Assembly (NCBI RefSeq): GCF_017948305.1 | Contig: NZ_CP072842.1 | Location: 2,486,501 to 2,550,500 of the forward strand | Length of the DNA stretch: 64,000 bases | DNA from: Faecalibacter bovis | Lineage (GTDB): Bacteria; Bacteroidota; Bacteroidia; Flavobacteriales; Weeksellaceae | Direction of reading: 5' to 3' | Part shown: positions 50,153 through 58,515 of the stretch, piece after piece | Numbering within the stretch: the first letter of the stretch is position 1 | Layout of the letters: each line of letters begins with the position of its first letter | Notes under the pieces: model-generated | Seen by the model: only the letters and a program-made list of their open reading frames with translations | Database searches by the model: none | What the model was told of the DNA's origin: nothing | Made by a program: the position numbers and the translations under genes

Positions 50153-50881
50153 TTATTGTAATAATTTGATAAACCAATTGGGTACTTTATCATCCATGAT
50201 TTCTAATTCACTTTTTTTAACTTGTGCGAAAAGCTTCATTTCTTTAGTCGAATTATCAAAAATATAGGCTTTATCAACCAATTTTAGTGCTGGAAATAAA
50301 TTTTTCAAAGTAGAGTAATAACGCTTAATTACCTTTTCTTCTGGTACTGGATGTCCCCCTTTCTCAACCCTATTCTCTATACGAGAAATATTAATCAAAG
50401 GATCTTCAATACATACAAAATACATATATGTTTTGAACCCACGCCTTTTAGCATCCATAATCTCATCCAATTTCGATGGATGACTCATTACAGTTTCGAA
50501 TGAATAGGATTTACCTTTAACTAATAAGTGTTTGCGTATAAATGATGTAATAAATGCTGCTTCATAACTGTGCGTAGATTTCGATTTATCCACTAACACA
50601 TTATTTTTGAATATAACATCAATGGATTTACCCTCTAATTTTGCCTTCTCAAAAAGAGAAATTGATGCTGATTCTGTTTTAAAATCTTAAAAATCCTTTT
50701 CGGTAAGTTTCAGTTCATATCGATCAAGATCTATGAACCCTTTTAATGAAATTTCCTTTTCGATCAGATCAGAATTGATGAAATATCCTGCATTAAATTT
50801 AGATGAAATGGTTTCGAATAGTGTAGACTTTCCAGATCCGTTTGGACCAGCAAAAACGCGTAAACGTTTTATTTTAGGCAT
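50153..50881 (-). pseudogene. Zeta-toxin-like kinase gene interrupted by one in-frame TAA
   Basis: The N-terminal part (50687-50881) has the P-loop RVFAGPNGSGKSTLFETI and NSDLIEKEISLKG and ends TEKDF-stop. The same frame continues without any other stop as DFKTESASISLFEKAKLEGK up to KSYSFETVMSHPSKLDEIMD, FKTYMYFVCIEDPLINISRI, ENRVEKGGHPVPEEKVIKRY and a normal end at 50153, 242 codons in all. This is the order of zeta-toxin/UDP-N-acetylglucosamine-kinase-like proteins of Bacteroidetes. The break is a single TAA (codons TTT-TAA-GAT at about 50687). It could be a recent nonsense mutation or an error. Confidence 0.75.
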
Positions 50882-51622: not shown

Positions 51623-54484
51623 TTATCTACCAAACCCTACAACGTAAGTATTTACAAAGTCGTAGATTCGGTGTGTTACTCTTTCTATTTTTGTTTTTCT
51701 TTCTTTTAAAGTTGGTTTCGTCAGCATTGTGCCTACAATGTCATCACGCAAAGGTTTCTTCTCCGTAAAAAGGTATTCACCAATAACGTTTTCAACTTTC
51801 GTTGGATCTAAAGCTTCTTCTTGACTCAATGATAACATTGCTTCTCTACGTTCAGCTACAATGAAATCATCGAAAGCTTGGATCACTTGGTCTGGATCTG
51901 TTACCAATGGTAAATTTTTCTGAATAAACTTCTCAATTAATTCCTTCTTACTTCGTAATTTGATGTCTGAGTTTAAAAGATCCTGAATCATCTTCTCTTG
52001 TGATGGTTTCTCAGCAACTGGTGCTGCTTGTAACTTAATCAAAAGGTTCATAATGTAAGTAACATTAATCTCATCACGATGGATTAATTCTAGCTCGAAA
52101 TCTAAATCATCCAAAATTGAATGTGAAGTAGAATCTTCTGTTGGAGGTTTGATTTTCTCTTCGTAAATGTCCAGATATTTACTTTTGTAATCTTCAAATT
52201 CTTGGTGAGATATTGGTAAATTATCAAAACTAAAATCACCGTACTGCTTCATTTTATTGATCAAACGCATCACATCTCTAAACGCTTGAATAAATTCAGC
52301 TTGTTCTTCTTCGTTACGCAATTTGTTTACACTATCAACAGTTGGTGTAATTGCCAGTAATGATTGATATTTCTCTTGTAACTTTACATCTAATGCTTCG
52401 TATGGTGGTTCGATAATTTCACTTACAGCATCTCTGTTTGCAAATAATTCAATCGCTTCATCCGTAGCATCTTTCAAGTTTCGGTAGCAAACGATATTCC
52501 CATGACTCTTAACCTCATCAAGAATTCGATTTGTGCGTGAATAGGCTTGAATTAATCCATGATATTTCAAATTCTTATCAACATATAACGTGTTCAAGGT
52601 TTTGCTGTCAAATCCCGTTAAAAACATGTTTACGACCAATAATATATCAATCTGTTTTGCTTTTACTTTGTCTGCAATATCATTGTAATATTGGTAGAAC
52701 AACGCTGAGTCTTTCGTTGAATAATTTCGTTGGAACATGGCATTGTAATCCTTGATAAAATCATCCAACTCCTCACGTTTGTATTTTGCTAAATATGGTG
52801 TTTGTTCTTCAGCTGCAACATCCATTTCATCTTCATCAGGAATGAAACTAGATTCTGGATTTTTCTTCTCCTCCTCATTCGCTGCATAAGTAAAAATAGT
52901 AGCCACTTTCAGGTTATGTTCCCCACGCTCTTTTGCTTCCTTAAAGAGTTTATAATAAGCAATTGCTGCATCTGTATCACTAACACAAAACATTGCTGTA
53001 AACTCCTTATTATGGGTTTTCTTTTGATGGTTTTGGATGATGTGATTAACGATGGCTTTTCTACGTATTAGAGAATTCATTACCTCAGCTTCATCGATCT
53101 TTTCAATCTCGATGTCCTGAATATCATCCTTACCTTTGAAGGTTTTGATATACTCAATTGCGAAACGAAGAACATTCCCATCACGAATGGCATCAGTTAT
53201 CACATATTTATGTAACGGTTTACCAAATAACATTTCTGTCGTTCGTTTTCCATAATCATTCGTTCCTGCGTTTGCAGCAAAAATTGGAGTTCCAGTGAAA
53301 CCGAACATCTGACAACCTTTGAAGAAATTCTTAATGGTTTCGTGGGTTTGTCCAAACTGTGAACGGTGACATTCATCAAAAATAAAGACGATACGCTCGT
53401 TTTCTAAGGCTTTCATATCCTTTAGGTAATATGGCTTAGAAATCGCGTTATTTAGCTTCTGTATCGTTGTTACAATCAGTTTATTCTTACCCGTCATTTG
53501 ATCAACCAGTGTTTTGGTGTTGTTGGTAGAATCAATTGAACCTTTGCTAAAACTATTGAACTCCTTTGCCGTTTGTGTGTCCAAATCTTTACGATCGACC
53601 ACAAACACCACTTTATGAACTTCTGGTAATGTTGTTAAGATCTGAGCAGCTTTAAATGATGTTAAAGTTTTTCCTGATCCCGTCGTGTGCCAAATATAAC
53701 CGTAATCTGTTGTCGTCTTTACTTGGTTGATAATCGCTTCAACAGCATAGTATTGGTAAGGTCTAAGAACCATTAACGCTTTCTGTGTTTCATTCAGTAC
53801 GATGTACTGTGTGATCATTTTTGATAGCTGACATGGATTCATGAACGCATCAGCAAATTCAGATAAATTAGTGATGAGTTCATTTTCTTTATCAGCCCAG
53901 TAAAAAGTTTGTTTAAACGATCGATCCTTTACTCGTCCGTTGCAGTAATATTTCGTATTAACGCCATTACTGATCACGAAAAGTTGAATGAATTGGAACA
54001 ATCCGAAACCTGCACCGTACGAATGTCTTTGGTAACGGTTGATTTGATTGAAAGCTTCTTTTAGTTCTAAACCTCGTCTTTTCAATTCGATCTGCACCAA
54101 AGGTAAACCATTGATTAGTATGGTAACATCGTAACGGTTTTGGTAATCACCTTTCATCGAAATTTGATTCGAAACTTGGAACTCGTTTTTACACCAATTC
54201 TTAGCATCGATCAGTTGGATGGTTTTATTCTCACCCAATTCGTTGACATAAGGAATACGCGAACGCAATGTCTTTGCACGGTCGAAAGTATTCCCTTTGT
54301 TGATATAGATTAGAATCTGGTTAAATTCTGAATCTGTTAGGGTTATTTTATTATGTTTTTCGATCTGTTGTTTGAAGTTAGCCACAACATCTGCTTCCTG
54401 ACGAAGTGTAATGCGTTCGTAGCCTAATCCCACCAACTGATCGATTAAGTTGTTTTCTAGTAGTTGTTCTGGTTGTGCGTTCAT
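51623..54484 (-). CDS. hsdR: Type I restriction enzyme R subunit HsdR
   Basis: A 953-aa motor and nuclease subunit; I start at the ATG at 54484 (MNAQPEQLLENNLIDQLVGL). The N-terminal PD-(D/E)xK nuclease is visible at YDVTILINGLPLVQIELKRRG. The SF2 motor has Walker A IWHTTGSGKTLTSFKAAQIL, DEAD-like FIFDECHRSQFG, GFTGTPIFA and the QAYSRTNRI motif VI. The helical C-terminus links to the methylase. It is separated from the other hsd genes by a DUF3800 gene and a 137-bp gap containing a candidate + strand RNA. Confidence 0.94.
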   Translation of the reverse strand: MNAQPEQLLENNLIDQLVGLGYERITLRQEADVVANFKQQIEKHNKITLTDSEFNQILIYINKGNTFDRAKTLRSRIPYVNELGENKTIQLIDAKNWCKNEFQVSNQISMKGDYQNRYDVTILINGLPLVQIELKRRGLELKEAFNQINRYQRHSYGAGFGLFQFIQLFVISNGVNTKYYCNGRVKDRSFKQTFYWADKENELITNLSEFADAFMNPCQLSKMITQYIVLNETQKALMVLRPYQYYAVEAIINQVKTTTDYGYIWHTTGSGKTLTSFKAAQILTTLPEVHKVVFVVDRKDLDTQTAKEFNSFSKGSIDSTNNTKTLVDQMTGKNKLIVTTIQKLNNAISKPYYLKDMKALENERIVFIFDECHRSQFGQTHETIKNFFKGCQMFGFTGTPIFAANAGTNDYGKRTTEMLFGKPLHKYVITDAIRDGNVLRFAIEYIKTFKGKDDIQDIEIEKIDEAEVMNSLIRRKAIVNHIIQNHQKKTHNKEFTAMFCVSDTDAAIAYYKLFKEAKERGEHNLKVATIFTYAANEEEKKNPESSFIPDEDEMDVAAEEQTPYLAKYKREELDDFIKDYNAMFQRNYSTKDSALFYQYYNDIADKVKAKQIDILLVVNMFLTGFDSKTLNTLYVDKNLKYHGLIQAYSRTNRILDEVKSHGNIVCYRNLKDATDEAIELFANRDAVSEIIEPPYEALDVKLQEKYQSLLAITPTVDSVNKLRNEEEQAEFIQAFRDVMRLINKMKQYGDFSFDNLPISHQEFEDYKSKYLDIYEEKIKPPTEDSTSHSILDDLDFELELIHRDEINVTYIMNLLIKLQAAPVAEKPSQEKMIQDLLNSDIKLRSKKELIEKFIQKNLPLVTDPDQVIQAFDDFIVAERREAMLSLSQEEALDPTKVENVIGEYLFTEKKPLRDDIVGTMLTKPTLKERKTKIERVTHRIYDFVNTYVVGFGR

Positions 54485-54510: not shown

Positions 54511-54543
54511 TTGTTATATATATGATTATTATAACTATATTTG
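54511..54543 (+). promoter_or_regulatory. Candidate + strand promoter in the hsdR upstream region
   Basis: A TTG at 54511-54513 and TATATTTG at 54536-54543 (exact TAnnTTTG) with a 22-nt spacer fit the Bacteroidetes promoter pattern. It points away from hsdR and towards the terminator at 54606-54635. Confidence 0.45.
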
Positions 54544-54549
54544 TACCAT

Positions 54550-54634
54550 AATTAAGTCTTTAACAAAAGAATATAAAAAGGATTGGGGTGTCCCCGGTCG
54601 AGCAGAAGCCAATCTTATGATTGGCTTTTGTTTT
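54550..54634 (+). ncRNA. Candidate small RNA between hsdR and DUF3800
   Basis: About 80 nt from the expected start near 54550 to a strong terminator: AAGCCAATC/GATTGGCTT (54606-54627, loop TTAT) plus TTGTTTTT. The body is GC-richer than the flanks and has GGGG-TGT-CCCC (54585-54595) followed by GGTCGAGCAG. GATTGG at 54581-54586 could also pair with CCAATC at 54609-54614, in competition with the terminator stem. There is no ATG in the body before the terminator loop. No + strand gene lies downstream for several kb, so it is not an ordinary leader. It does not resemble an RNA family I know. Confidence 0.45.
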
Positions 54635-55371
54635 TAAGGGAAAATCTTAATCCCATATATCTTCCCTTCTTTTTGATAAATTTTTTCCTTTAACACTTCG
54701 AAAGATGGATTAGCTCTATCTGGCTCAATAACATATCTTGCTATTGGATATGCTATCAGATCACTTAATTGTAATCCATTAATATTGTCTTTTTTTGATT
54801 TAAAGAAAATTTTTAAATTAACTTCTTTTAATCTTTCAGGTTTAACAAAGGAAGTTCCTCTTGATAAAAGTCGTTGGAAGTGTTCCTCAAGTTTCTTATC
54901 TTCTCTCTTACCTCGTTTTTCAATTATAATCTCTAACTCTTTCCTTACACCTCTTACTTCATCTAATGAAAATATTGCTCTTTCAATAATAAAAGAGAGG
55001 GCAAGTTCATATACATCGTTTGAAAGCTTACCATACATATTAATATATTTTTCTTTTTTAATAGCAGATGCTAATATTCTATATTTACTATCTGATATTA
55101 AAGAATTTATCATATGGTAAAATTCTTTTTTTAACTCCATATCAAATAAAATCTGAAACTCTTTTTCACATTTACGTATATCCCTTGAATGTAAAATTAC
55201 TTTTTTATCTCTCCAGAATTTTGTCTTGATAGAATTAATAGAGTCTTTAATCACTTGATAATTATCCTCACTTGTAAGTACAGCACACAAAAGGAAAACT
55301 GGAAATGACGGATCAAGATTAATCAAACCATGATCTCCACTCTCATCAATAAATAGGTAATATTTTTTCAT
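54634..55371 (-). CDS. DUF3800 protein inside the type I restriction locus
   Basis: A 245-aa DUF3800 protein: the start KKYYLFIDESGDHG carries the family's D-E-S-G-D motif, with FPVFLLCAVL and a C-terminal INGLQLSDLIAYPIARYVIE including a conserved Asp. The fold is thought to be RNase-H-like, suggesting a nuclease, but the activity is unproven. It lies 31 bp after hsdS and before hsdR. DUF3800 genes often accompany defence loci, so an accessory defence role is possible. Confidence 0.85.
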   Translation of the reverse strand: MKKYYLFIDESGDHGLINLDPSFPVFLLCAVLTSEDNYQVIKDSINSIKTKFWRDKKVILHSRDIRKCEKEFQILFDMELKKEFYHMINSLISDSKYRILASAIKKEKYINMYGKLSNDVYELALSFIIERAIFSLDEVRGVRKELEIIIEKRGKREDKKLEEHFQRLLSRGTSFVKPERLKEVNLKIFFKSKKDNINGLQLSDLIAYPIARYVIEPDRANPSFEVLKEKIYQKEGKIYGIKIFP

Positions 55372-55402: not shown

Positions 55403-56623
55403 TTATACAAACATTTGCTGCAACATCGCTTTCTTAAAGTTTTGGGTTTCTTTGATCTGTTGCTCTACTTTGGTGATACTTTCATCAATTGCAGATAAGA
55501 AATCGGCAATTTTTTGTTGTTCATGGTAATTTGGAAACGGTAATTTTATTTTAAAAAAACCATCTTTACTAATATTAAGTAATCCATCCATTCTTGCAGA
55601 ACTAGATACTAATTTTCTTAAATCTCTATCTAAATAATGATTTTCAAAAAGTTTTGCATAGAAATTAGTTGAAACTTCACTGACATTTAATGGACGAAAA
55701 CTTATAAAAACATTAGGAACTGAAATTTGATAATCAAAATTAGATAAATAAACACAACCATATGTATATGTCTTAGAATTACCTTTATTGTACGATAAAT
55801 CACCCTTATTTAATATAATATAATTTGCGTTCTGTTTTCCTGAAATATCTCTTCCAAATTTTTCTTCTTGACTTATAAATCCTTTACCAGCAGATATGCT
55901 GTAAGTTGCAATTTTCTTGTTTCCTACTTTATCTTTAATCTCTATAAAAATCTCACCCAAACGTTTCTCTTCCCACTCAGGATAGTCGTTGCCGTTTTCA
56001 TCTTTAAAACGAATTTCTTGTGTAAACAATTTTTGCATCATCGCTTTTTTGTAGCGTGATAATTCTGTTTTCTTCTCTTCGAGTAACTCGATCTTCTTGT
56101 CGATGGTTGTTAAGTAATCGGCAATTTTTTGTTGTTCTGGGAGGGAAGTTGTATATACTTTGATATTAGAAAAATCAGTTTTATTTATTAAAGGGACAGC
56201 CTGTGTACCAGCTATCATTTTAATAATATTCTGTCTTTTCTCCAGGGAATAATAAATAAAATCATTAGAGAAATCATCAAATGCTGTTAATGAATTTATT
56301 TGCTGATTAGTTGTATAATCGATTGGTACAATAGCTAATTTACCTATTGTAGAACCAATACATACAAATGCAATACTACCTCCTGAAACCTTACGACATT
56401 TATCGAATCCTTTTTTAGTTAAAGTTGTTTTTGTTTGGGTAACATATTTATTCTCGTTTATATCATATGGACTAACAAAAAGATATTCACCTCCATAGTA
56501 TGTTCTATTACTAGTTGATGGTGTAGAACCTGTTATTATATGACTTATTGATCCTAGTCTATAACTTTTCCAATCCCCATTAAATTCATGAAACCTCAAC
56601 TTAGGCTGTAATTGTATTTCCAT
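55403..56623 (-). CDS. hsdS: Type I restriction specificity subunit HsdS
   Basis: A 406-aa DNA-recognition subunit with two target-recognition domains: residues ~15-165 (starting WKSYRLGSISHIITGSTPST) and ~215-370 (starting YPEWEEKRLGEIFIEIKDKV). Each is followed by a conserved helical spacer, LPEQQKIADYLTTIDKKIEL and YHEQQKIADFLSAIDESITK. Recognition sequence cannot be read. It is 1 bp after hsdM. No second hsdS fragment or inverted recombination arms were seen, so no sign of shuffling in this window. Confidence 0.94.
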   Translation of the reverse strand: MEIQLQPKLRFHEFNGDWKSYRLGSISHIITGSTPSTSNRTYYGGEYLFVSPYDINENKYVTQTKTTLTKKGFDKCRKVSGGSIAFVCIGSTIGKLAIVPIDYTTNQQINSLTAFDDFSNDFIYYSLEKRQNIIKMIAGTQAVPLINKTDFSNIKVYTTSLPEQQKIADYLTTIDKKIELLEEKKTELSRYKKAMMQKLFTQEIRFKDENGNDYPEWEEKRLGEIFIEIKDKVGNKKIATYSISAGKGFISQEEKFGRDISGKQNANYIILNKGDLSYNKGNSKTYTYGCVYLSNFDYQISVPNVFISFRPLNVSEVSTNFYAKLFENHYLDRDLRKLVSSSARMDGLLNISKDGFFKIKLPFPNYHEQQKIADFLSAIDESITKVEQQIKETQNFKKAMLQQMFV

Positions 56624-56624
56624 A

Positions 56625-58175
56625 TTAAAACGGTGTTGGGATATTTAATTGTTTACAGAAGTCAGCCAATTGTTTATCTACCTCTAAAAGTTCTTTATTA
56701 ATCGTTTTCAAACGATCTGACACCACATCTACATCAATTGCTTCCTCTTCCTCAAACGTATCCACATAACGTGGGATATTCAAGTTATAATCGTTTTCAG
56801 CAATCTCTGCTAAAGTCGTGATATGACAATATTTTTCTATCTCTTGTCGGTTCGCATAAGCATCCACAATACGATCAATATCTTCTGGTCGAAGTTTGTT
56901 CTGTGTACCTTCTTTGGTATAGTTCTCTTCACCACTTGCATCAATAAAGACAATGTTATCATCCGCTTTACGGCATTTCTTCAGTACCACTATACATGTT
57001 GGGATCGATGTTCCGTAAAAGATATTGGCAGGTAAACCAATGATTGCATCAATGGCATTTAATTCTTTGATGAAATACTCACGTATTACACCTTCTGCTG
57101 CACCACGAAATAATACCCCATGAGGAAAAACAGAAGCCACTGTTCCGTTATCTGCCAATTGGTAGTACATGTGTTGTAAGAACGCAAAATCGGCTTTTGT
57201 TTTGGGTGCTAGTTTTCCAAATTGGTTGAATCGTGGATCTGAAGCATTTAAAGGATTCGCATCACCTTTCCAGTTAGCAGAAAATGGAGGATTTGCGACA
57301 ATTGCTTCAAATCGTTGTTCTAAGTGATGAGGTTCTTCTAGTGTATCATCCTGCTCGATGTTGAAACGTGAGAAATGCACATCGTGCAAAATCATGTTCA
57401 TACGAGCCAAGTTGTATGTTGTTGGGTTTAATTCTTGTCCGTAAAAATCAGCCACATTAGATTCTTTCGCAACACGAAGCAATAAGGAACCAGAACCACA
57501 TGTAGGATCATAAACCGAACGGATCTTATCTTTTCCTAATGTTACAATCTTCGCAAGAATCGTAGAAACTTGTTGAGGTGTATAGAATTCTCCAGCACTT
57601 TTACCTGCACCAGCCGCGAAGTTGGAGATCAAATACTCGTAAGCATCACCTAAAACATCAGAATCGATTTCGTTAAGTTTAAAGTCGATTTCAGCTAACT
57701 TGCCTAAGATTTCTACAATTACTTCATTACGTTTGTCTGGAGTCTTACCAAGCTTACTTGAAGCTAGATCCACATCTTGGAACAAACCATTGAAATCTTC
57801 TTCAGACTCTGTACCCATTGTCGATTGCTCGATGTAGTTCAGTGTCGCTTCTAATTCTTCAATAATGTATTCTTTCTCACCTTTCTTTGCAATGATCTCG
57901 AATAACTGGTTTGGTGCAAGGTAATAACCTAATTGTGCCAACGACTCTTCCTGAATAGCTTCTAAAGTTTCAGGATCAGACACAAGTGTGTATTCCTTCA
58001 CTTCCTCGTCCTCTAAAAGAGTGTTAGCGTATAAATGTTGCTTCTCTGATAAGTATTTAAAGAAGATAAATCCTAATATGTAGTTACGGTATTCATCTGC
58101 GTTGATTCGTCCTCGTAAGGTATTTGCAATATCCCAAAGCTTTTGCTCTAGTTGCTGTTTTTGATCTCCTGACAT
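56625..58175 (-). CDS. hsdM: Type I restriction methylase HsdM
   Basis: A 516-aa N6-adenine methylase. I start at MSGDQKQQLEQKLWDIANTL (ATG at 58175); the 24 upstream codons encode an unrelated hydrophobic tract. After the N-terminal helical domain the SAM site is VYDPTCGSGSLLLRVAKES and the catalytic motif is ANPPFSANWKGD (NPPF). FPHGVLFRGAAEGVIREYFI follows. First of hsdM-hsdS-DUF3800-hsdR. A TATATTTA box on the - strand near 58200 may be its promoter. Confidence 0.95.
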   Translation of the reverse strand: MSGDQKQQLEQKLWDIANTLRGRINADEYRNYILGFIFFKYLSEKQHLYANTLLEDEEVKEYTLVSDPETLEAIQEESLAQLGYYLAPNQLFEIIAKKGEKEYIIEELEATLNYIEQSTMGTESEEDFNGLFQDVDLASSKLGKTPDKRNEVIVEILGKLAEIDFKLNEIDSDVLGDAYEYLISNFAAGAGKSAGEFYTPQQVSTILAKIVTLGKDKIRSVYDPTCGSGSLLLRVAKESNVADFYGQELNPTTYNLARMNMILHDVHFSRFNIEQDDTLEEPHHLEQRFEAIVANPPFSANWKGDANPLNASDPRFNQFGKLAPKTKADFAFLQHMYYQLADNGTVASVFPHGVLFRGAAEGVIREYFIKELNAIDAIIGLPANIFYGTSIPTCIVVLKKCRKADDNIVFIDASGEENYTKEGTQNKLRPEDIDRIVDAYANRQEIEKYCHITTLAEIAENDYNLNIPRYVDTFEEEEAIDVDVVSDRLKTINKELLEVDKQLADFCKQLNIPTPF

Positions 58176-58515
58176 TTTTGTTCTATTGGTGGTTAAATAT
58201 ACGAAATGGAGTGTGGAAAAAAGATACAAAAAGAAATTTATACACAAAAAAAAACCACATCAACTAAGATGTGGTTTTACTTGGTATTGATACCCAATTG
58301 AGAAAAATGAACTTCTGGGACAACTATGAATTTTACTTCAAAAAATCATTAAAAATGATAGGATTGATAAATTATAAAGAATTAAAAAACCAGCCATAAA
58401 GGCTGGTTTTTTATTTATTATCAGTATAGATCTTTGAATTTATTACCGCTAATTCTACCACATTACAAATTCTTTTAAGTTGAAATTATGATGTAGTTAA
58501 TTTTTAGAAATTTAA
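58176..58515. other. Intergenic region with two terminators
   Basis: Holds a terminator stem AAAACCACATC/AGATGTGGTTTT at 58251-58278 (T run on the - strand) and a second stem AAAAAACCAGCC/GGCTGGTTTTTT at 58385-58412 with T runs on both strands. Between them is a possible 30-codon + strand frame (58307-58399, starting MNFWDNYEFY) whose end runs into the second hairpin; I do not count it as a gene. The double terminator isolates the hsd genes from the ABC transporter unit. Confidence 0.75.

Follow-up and report, generated by a model that had tools for sequence, protein, structure and literature searches.

Based on the analysis of a 64,000-nucleotide stretch of Faecalibacter bovis DNA (the window), we propose that positions 54550-54635 encode a dedicated partner RNA of the adjoining DUF3800 protein, an RNA which we hold, with a confidence slightly above even, to be the silencer of a nuclease, the copies of its hairpin found in phages being decoys. 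The small RNA itself, which is predicted from the sequence, is very probably real and would be transcribed from the promoter described below. DUF3800 is a widespread domain of unknown function, which recent work has noted both beside non-coding RNAs and, in CRISPR loci, as an accessory protein with an RNase H fold. The elements of the locus, in window coordinates, are the following.

54511..54513, plus strand: TTG, the -33 element of a Bacteroidota promoter, with a 22-nt spacer to TATATTTG
54536..54543, plus strand: -7 element TATATTTG (TAnnTTTG), present in 17 of 21 loci
54550..54635, plus strand: predicted small RNA, putative DUF3800 partner, about 85 nt (fold z -6.2, conservation beside DUF3800, covariation)
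54580..54600, plus strand: core hairpin GGATTGGGGTGTCCCCGGTCG, stem 54581-54588 with 54592-54599, loop 54589-54591; a 21-nt element also found in phages
54600..54635, plus strand: second hairpin and U run, an intrinsic terminator, with a 15-bp stem (54600-54614 with 54619-54633)
54634..55371, minus strand: DUF3800 gene, 245 aa, PF12686, convergent with the RNA; predicted RNase HII-like fold
51623..54484, minus strand: hsdR of the surrounding type I restriction locus (context, outside the RNA-protein pair)
55403..56623, minus strand: hsdS (context)
56625..58247, minus strand: hsdM (context), translation of which probably begins downstream of the frame's first TTG

The features which the initial annotation had described at 54511-54635 are all present. 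The promoter does lie opposite to the hsd strand, but it is not of the sigma-70 type (a generic scan reports none at 54511-54543); its layout, TTG-22-TATATTTG, is instead that of Bacteroidota promoters, and it is from this promoter that the 5' end of the RNA would be placed at 54550. The core is, as had been seen, GC-richer (71%, against 32% across the window) and forms the hairpin GGATTGGGGTGTCCCCGGTCG, whose arms, GAUUGGGG-UGU-CCCCGGUC at 54581-54599, pair in a GC-rich stem of 8 bp. This helix abuts directly, with zero nucleotides between the two, on that of the perfect-stem terminator, the U run of which overlaps the DUF3800 stop codon (54634-54636), the last two U lying over the stop-codon complement. 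The free energy of the RNA is -34.5 kcal/mol, against -15.9 +/- 3.0 in shuffled sequences (z = -6.2), and none of 200 shuffles folded as well. The RNA is single copy, with no second occurrence (for instance as a REP element) in its own genome. The window contains no tRNA, so that a tRNA relic or a tRNA integration site was rejected. The competing fold that had been proposed as a built-in terminator switch, in which GATTGG would pair with CCAATC, had a similar fate: GATTGG does occur twice, but the two-hairpin fold is better than the switch by 18 kcal/mol, and the switch is found in one of 29 relatives, so that, not being conserved, it was taken for a coincidence of one sequence. The RNA points toward the DUF3800 gene and ends in the terminator at its stop codon. 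A cis-regulatory leader or riboswitch stands upstream of the gene it controls, on the same strand, whereas here the RNA is convergent and no plus-strand gene follows; it is thus not a leader, in agreement with the initial annotation.

Conservation in related loci, which had been suggested as a check, is indeed found. Every one of the close DUF3800 homologues read (59-80% identity, from genome searches; Flavobacteriia, Pedobacter, Chitinophaga, a Melioribacteraceae MAG and others) is followed by such a convergent RNA, encoded on the other strand, whose terminator directly adjoins the stop codon of the gene. Among 12 distant homologues (about 30-39% identity, from plasmids and phages), the convergent two-hairpin RNA is present in ten, of Proteobacteria, including those on plasmids of Methylorubrum, Bradyrhizobium, Paraburkholderia and Acinetobacter and in the phages Pkon1 (Paracoccus) and JBD68 (Pseudomonas), and is absent beside two Lactobacillales relatives. 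In an alignment of 29 RNAs, standard pairs make up 90.4% of the pair cells, and the structure has a covariation score of 0.433, compared with a shuffle mean of 0.209 and with at most 0.206 for slid structures. Both helices covary (14 of the 20 pairs are changed on both sides somewhere), and hairpin 2 keeps its pairing though most of its bases change. Additionally, 17 of 21 loci have TAnnTTTG in the 80 nt that precede the core, where 1.6 such loci would be expected, and in 10 of 21 a TTG also stands 17-23 nt before this -7 element. Covariation and promoter conservation contradict the suggestion that the RNA is a relic.

Within cells, this RNA stays close to DUF3800. The exact hairpin pattern occurs in one of 396 genomes across the phylum, that of the window itself, and a covariance model of the RNA (R1), run over 247 Bacteroidia genomes, matches six of them with 59 bits or more, five of these matches being beside a DUF3800 gene and one an orphan; a weak match (L139, 31.8 bits) also adjoins a DUF3800 gene. 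Conserved, covarying and with the same recurrent neighbor, the RNA belongs to the DUF3800-associated structured RNAs. It has no match in Rfam 15, either in the window or in 8 close and 9 distant loci, at gathering score and at permissive E-values, and the DUF3800-I and -VII families are also absent from the whole genome. The conservation data already contradict the idea that the element is a mere transcription terminator for convergent genes, accompanied by chance features, which we regard as scarcely credible. Terminators are common between convergent genes, and R1 matches below about 37 bits are mostly ordinary terminators, but here there is no T run on the DUF3800 side of the stem, the core hairpin is conserved and covaries, and a dedicated promoter is followed by no ORF before the terminator.

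Some individual loci depart from the usual arrangement. An orphan RNA without a DUF3800 gene (L135:1501-1570) adjoins short ATCCCGTAGGGATGA-like repeats; in L134, tandem RNA copies (1220-1285 and 1507-1570) lie about 285 bp apart, the second beside DUF3800, and both have a longer leader with a further possible hairpin. In two other loci (L039:5001-5604 and L051:1350-2072) the DUF3800 gene is apparently shortened or interrupted and the RNA hairpin is retained.

In the window, as in about ten relatives, a type I restriction locus surrounds the DUF3800-RNA pair, typically in the order hsdM-hsdS-DUF3800-RNA-hsdR (the hsd context of the relatives was judged from ORFs and their first residues). On this position, between DUF3800 and hsdR and on the opposite strand, rests the proposal that the RNA regulates the hsd genes, by antisense or by transcription interference over hsdR/DUF3800, to which we give very little credence: the RNA starts at least 52 nt outside hsdR and runs away from it, the terminator would stop it at the DUF3800 stop codon, and the pair is also found in loci without hsd genes (e.g. 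L030, L033, L034, L036 and L037). Since the RNA is conserved equally where hsdR is absent, the regulation of hsdR advanced by the initial annotation is unsupported. There is strong support for the other role put forward there, that of a partner RNA to DUF3800, since the RNA is present in all close and most distant homologues, including those without hsd. Judging from gene neighborhoods, it is DUF3800, and not hsdR, that is the constant companion of the RNA. In the surroundings of these pairs we also observed a zeta-toxin-like kinase gene in two ORFs, apparently broken, downstream of hsdR in the window (50153-50881), and two Abi_2/AbiF-like genes (by eye, from first residues) between the DUF3800-RNA pair and hsdR at L026:6135-8192, that is, defence modules stacked within one hsd locus. 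A match to the abiF RNA below threshold (32 bits, cut-off 37) lies directly upstream of the DUF3800 coding region at L023:4940-4975.

The DUF3800 protein has a confident AlphaFold model (pLDDT 90), for which the best Foldseek match is RNase HII (1eke, E 1.1e-5, TM about 0.5), followed by other RNase H enzymes. Across the alignment, D204 never varies, nor do D9 and E10, which belong to a DESG motif. The protein is thus predicted to have an RNase HII-like fold, within the RNase H class, with an acidic active site, and it would cleave nucleic acids. A sequence search against solved structures gave insignificant matches only, and the gene has no match among the PADLOC defence genes. An RNase H fold has been reported for DUF3800, in agreement with our model, and DUF3800 proteins have been linked to RNA-guided Cas12 loci (PMC10910872).

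In the mechanism that we favor, the RNA would be made from its own promoter toward DUF3800, ending at its stop codon and folding into a core hairpin stacked on the long terminator hairpin. The RNase HII-like protein would recognize the core hairpin, which is most likely the element to which it binds, and the RNA would keep the nuclease inactive in healthy cells, as an RNA antitoxin does. Phage infection or transcription damage could then upset the ratio, releasing the nuclease, and phages may counter by producing decoys, in which this hairpin is mounted on different RNA scaffolds. An inhibitory RNA is favored by analogy with the abiF RNA, a protein-binding RNA antitoxin (PMC12373285). Points against this explanation are the two Lactobacillales relatives without the RNA, the orphan in L135, a layout unlike that of type III toxin-antitoxin systems, the possibly fragmentary nature of the viral contigs and the failure, in the short hairpin type, of a wobble rule first noticed in the long type. 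Its main rival, which we consider possible but clearly short of even odds, holds that DUF3800 is active as a ribonucleoprotein, to which the RNA would contribute as activating cofactor or as guide scaffold, the phage hairpins being competitive inhibitors that give rise to dead complexes. The same evidence of RNA-DUF3800 association applies to it, and it is in line with the Cas12 connection of DUF3800 (PMC10910872) and with the RNA mimics known to form aberrant complexes (PMC10651486); as to a guide scaffold, however, the 5' leader is A/U-rich, variable in length and has no sign of a guide, only the hairpin pair being conserved. Whether the RNA is inhibitor or cofactor, hairpins that a phage provides in free form would calm the system or put it out of action, an effect like that of RNA anti-CRISPRs (PMC10651486).

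The phage side of the silencing proposal is based on scans of 2.9 million viral contigs with hairpin patterns derived from the cellular RNAs, in which the fourth-pair positions were left free or scanned separately. The long-type pattern (GGAYYGGGGWGTCCCCGRTCG) was found in 37 viral stretches, just two of them beside a DUF3800 gene, and, with any loop allowed, in 64 stretches, compared with 9 for a control pattern with swapped stem arms. The short-stem type (GGATTGGGNNNTCCCGGTCGG) was found in 76 stretches, 24 with a DUF3800 gene, and in 27 distinct contexts without it. Outside DUF3800 loci the flanks are unrelated, but the hairpin always points the same way with respect to promoters, T runs and tRNA-like genes. 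The scaffolds are of four kinds: (a) tips of terminator stems; (b) small RNAs right behind TACCTTTG promoters; (c) 3' regions of phage genes; and (d) D-loops of tRNA-like genes (e.g. gtggcggaa-[hairpin]-tggtagacgc). With DUF3800 loci counted in, there are 83 distinct contexts, and in 43 of these a stem of at least 6 bp surrounds the hairpin; exchanging the downstream flanks lowers this number to 17 on average and 27 at most. No DUF3800 gene was detected in any of 25 whole viral records bearing the hairpin, a count in which many records are fragments and very distant members may escape the search profile. A DNA-similarity search for the phage hosts gave tRNA and weak matches only; in one of the 25 records, that of the cultured Flavobacterium phage vB_FspM_immuto (host Flavobacterium sp. 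LMO8), the hairpin is located between two tRNA genes. One viral contig carries a short-type hairpin inside a terminator-like stem (L128:5610-5650), together with catalase-peroxidase-like and heme-oxygenase-like genes (by eye) and with no DUF3800 in the stretch read.

The tRNA-like genes with the hairpin in the D-arm region (viral contigs L043, L053, L055, L061, L063, L071 and L072) have seemingly intact acceptor and T arms and a degenerate anticodon region, and may be stable RNA scaffolds rather than tRNAs. With the hairpin removed, a default ARAGORN search called just two of them (L071 and L072), both poorly, and an intron-allowing search added a few calls with unconvincing anticodons; given such few and poor calls, the case for these scaffolds relies on the acceptor, D- and T-arm sequences read by eye.

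The phage hairpins also follow the stem rules of the cellular RNAs. In the long type, the fourth pair (4/18) is U.G in 19 and C.A in 16 of the 37 viral cases, 35 in all, a bias which holds over distinct contexts (Fisher p = 0.0003), and U.G or C.A is also what Bacteroidota DUF3800 RNAs have at this pair. In the short type, the viral counts are 76 U.G, 20 C-G, 0 C.A and 2 U-A, these two resembling coding sequence, and the short-type DUF3800 RNAs examined likewise have U.G or C-G. A universal wobble rule at pair 4/18 (U.G or C.A) was tried; it fails for the short type and holds as a subtype rule only. Such agreement, subtype by subtype, between phage and cellular hairpins is to be expected if the former mimic a recognized element. 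It also bears on the view, which we find improbable, that the hairpin is a general RNA element (for stability, for processing or as a common host-protein site), with phage copies unrelated to DUF3800. Most viral copies are in terminators, 3' regions and tRNA-like RNAs, as expected of stability elements; however, a general element should occur in many host RNAs, and the cellular hairpin is almost confined to DUF3800 loci, while in stem length and permitted pairs the phage copies follow the two subtypes of DUF3800 RNA.

As to the decoy reading, we lean, by a little, toward an arms race by RNA mimicry, in which DUF3800 nucleases would be held by the 21-nt hairpin and many unrelated phages would express it as decoys on promoter-driven small RNAs, on terminator tips and in the D-loops of anticodon-less tRNA-like RNAs; the latter, as part of the same reading and with the same cautious preference, would be natural 'tRNA scaffolds' for an RNA aptamer. 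We know of no precedent for tRNA-like decoy scaffolds, which would be new if this reading is true, and a further class of defence would then be countered by phage RNA mimics. In practical terms, the locus offers a compact, testable pair (one 245-aa protein and one RNA of about 85 nt), a 21-nt element as the likely recognition site and candidate natural inhibitors in phages, one of them a cultured Flavobacterium phage.

Structured RNAs adjoining DUF3800 genes are a known kind: the DUF3800 RNA motifs reportedly come from a 2017 screen by Weinberg and colleagues (cited in PMC10910872), with 224 candidate structured RNAs, and DUF3800-I (RF02969), DUF3800-VII (RF02967) and DUF3800-IX (RF02968) are present in Rfam. 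The RNA described here shares with them its position next to a DUF3800 gene, and differs in having its own core hairpin, a convergent position and phage copies; compared with the motifs present in Rfam, it is another class of DUF3800-associated RNA. We found no report of this class or of its phage copies, which is weak evidence, given a literature coverage outside most subscription journals. In type III toxin-antitoxin systems (ToxIN and others), tandem RNA repeats are co-transcribed upstream of the toxin. The proposed mode of action, an RNA that binds directly to a nuclease and so silences it, would be alike, but the layout is not of type III, the RNA being single copy, on the opposite strand, with its own promoter and at the 3' end of the gene.

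A comparable protein-binding RNA antitoxin is the abiF RNA (RCd22) of the type III-like AbiF system (PMC12373285). In both cases one protein is accompanied by one cognate structured small RNA, in defence or prophage settings; the abiF RNA, however, is upstream of its gene and has two motif repeats, whereas here the 3' end of the gene faces a single convergent RNA, and AbiF is an Abi_2 protein, whereas DUF3800 is predicted to be RNase HII-like. On the phage side, Racrs (RNA anti-CRISPRs) are stand-alone phage copies of the short RNA element, a CRISPR repeat, to which a defence protein responds, and block a Cas complex (PMC10651486). The phage hairpins are similarly found apart from the defence protein; the mimicked element, however, is the hairpin of a DUF3800 RNA and not a CRISPR repeat, so that we do not claim Racr membership, and their inhibitory action is presumed. 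Finally, PrrC and RloC are anticodon nucleases, and PrrC is linked to type I restriction loci (PMC2610378); the DUF3800 protein, a putative RNase, likewise lies within an hsd locus. PrrC, however, owes its silencing to the linked restriction enzyme itself, whereas the DUF3800 pair also lives without hsd genes and has an RNA of its own.
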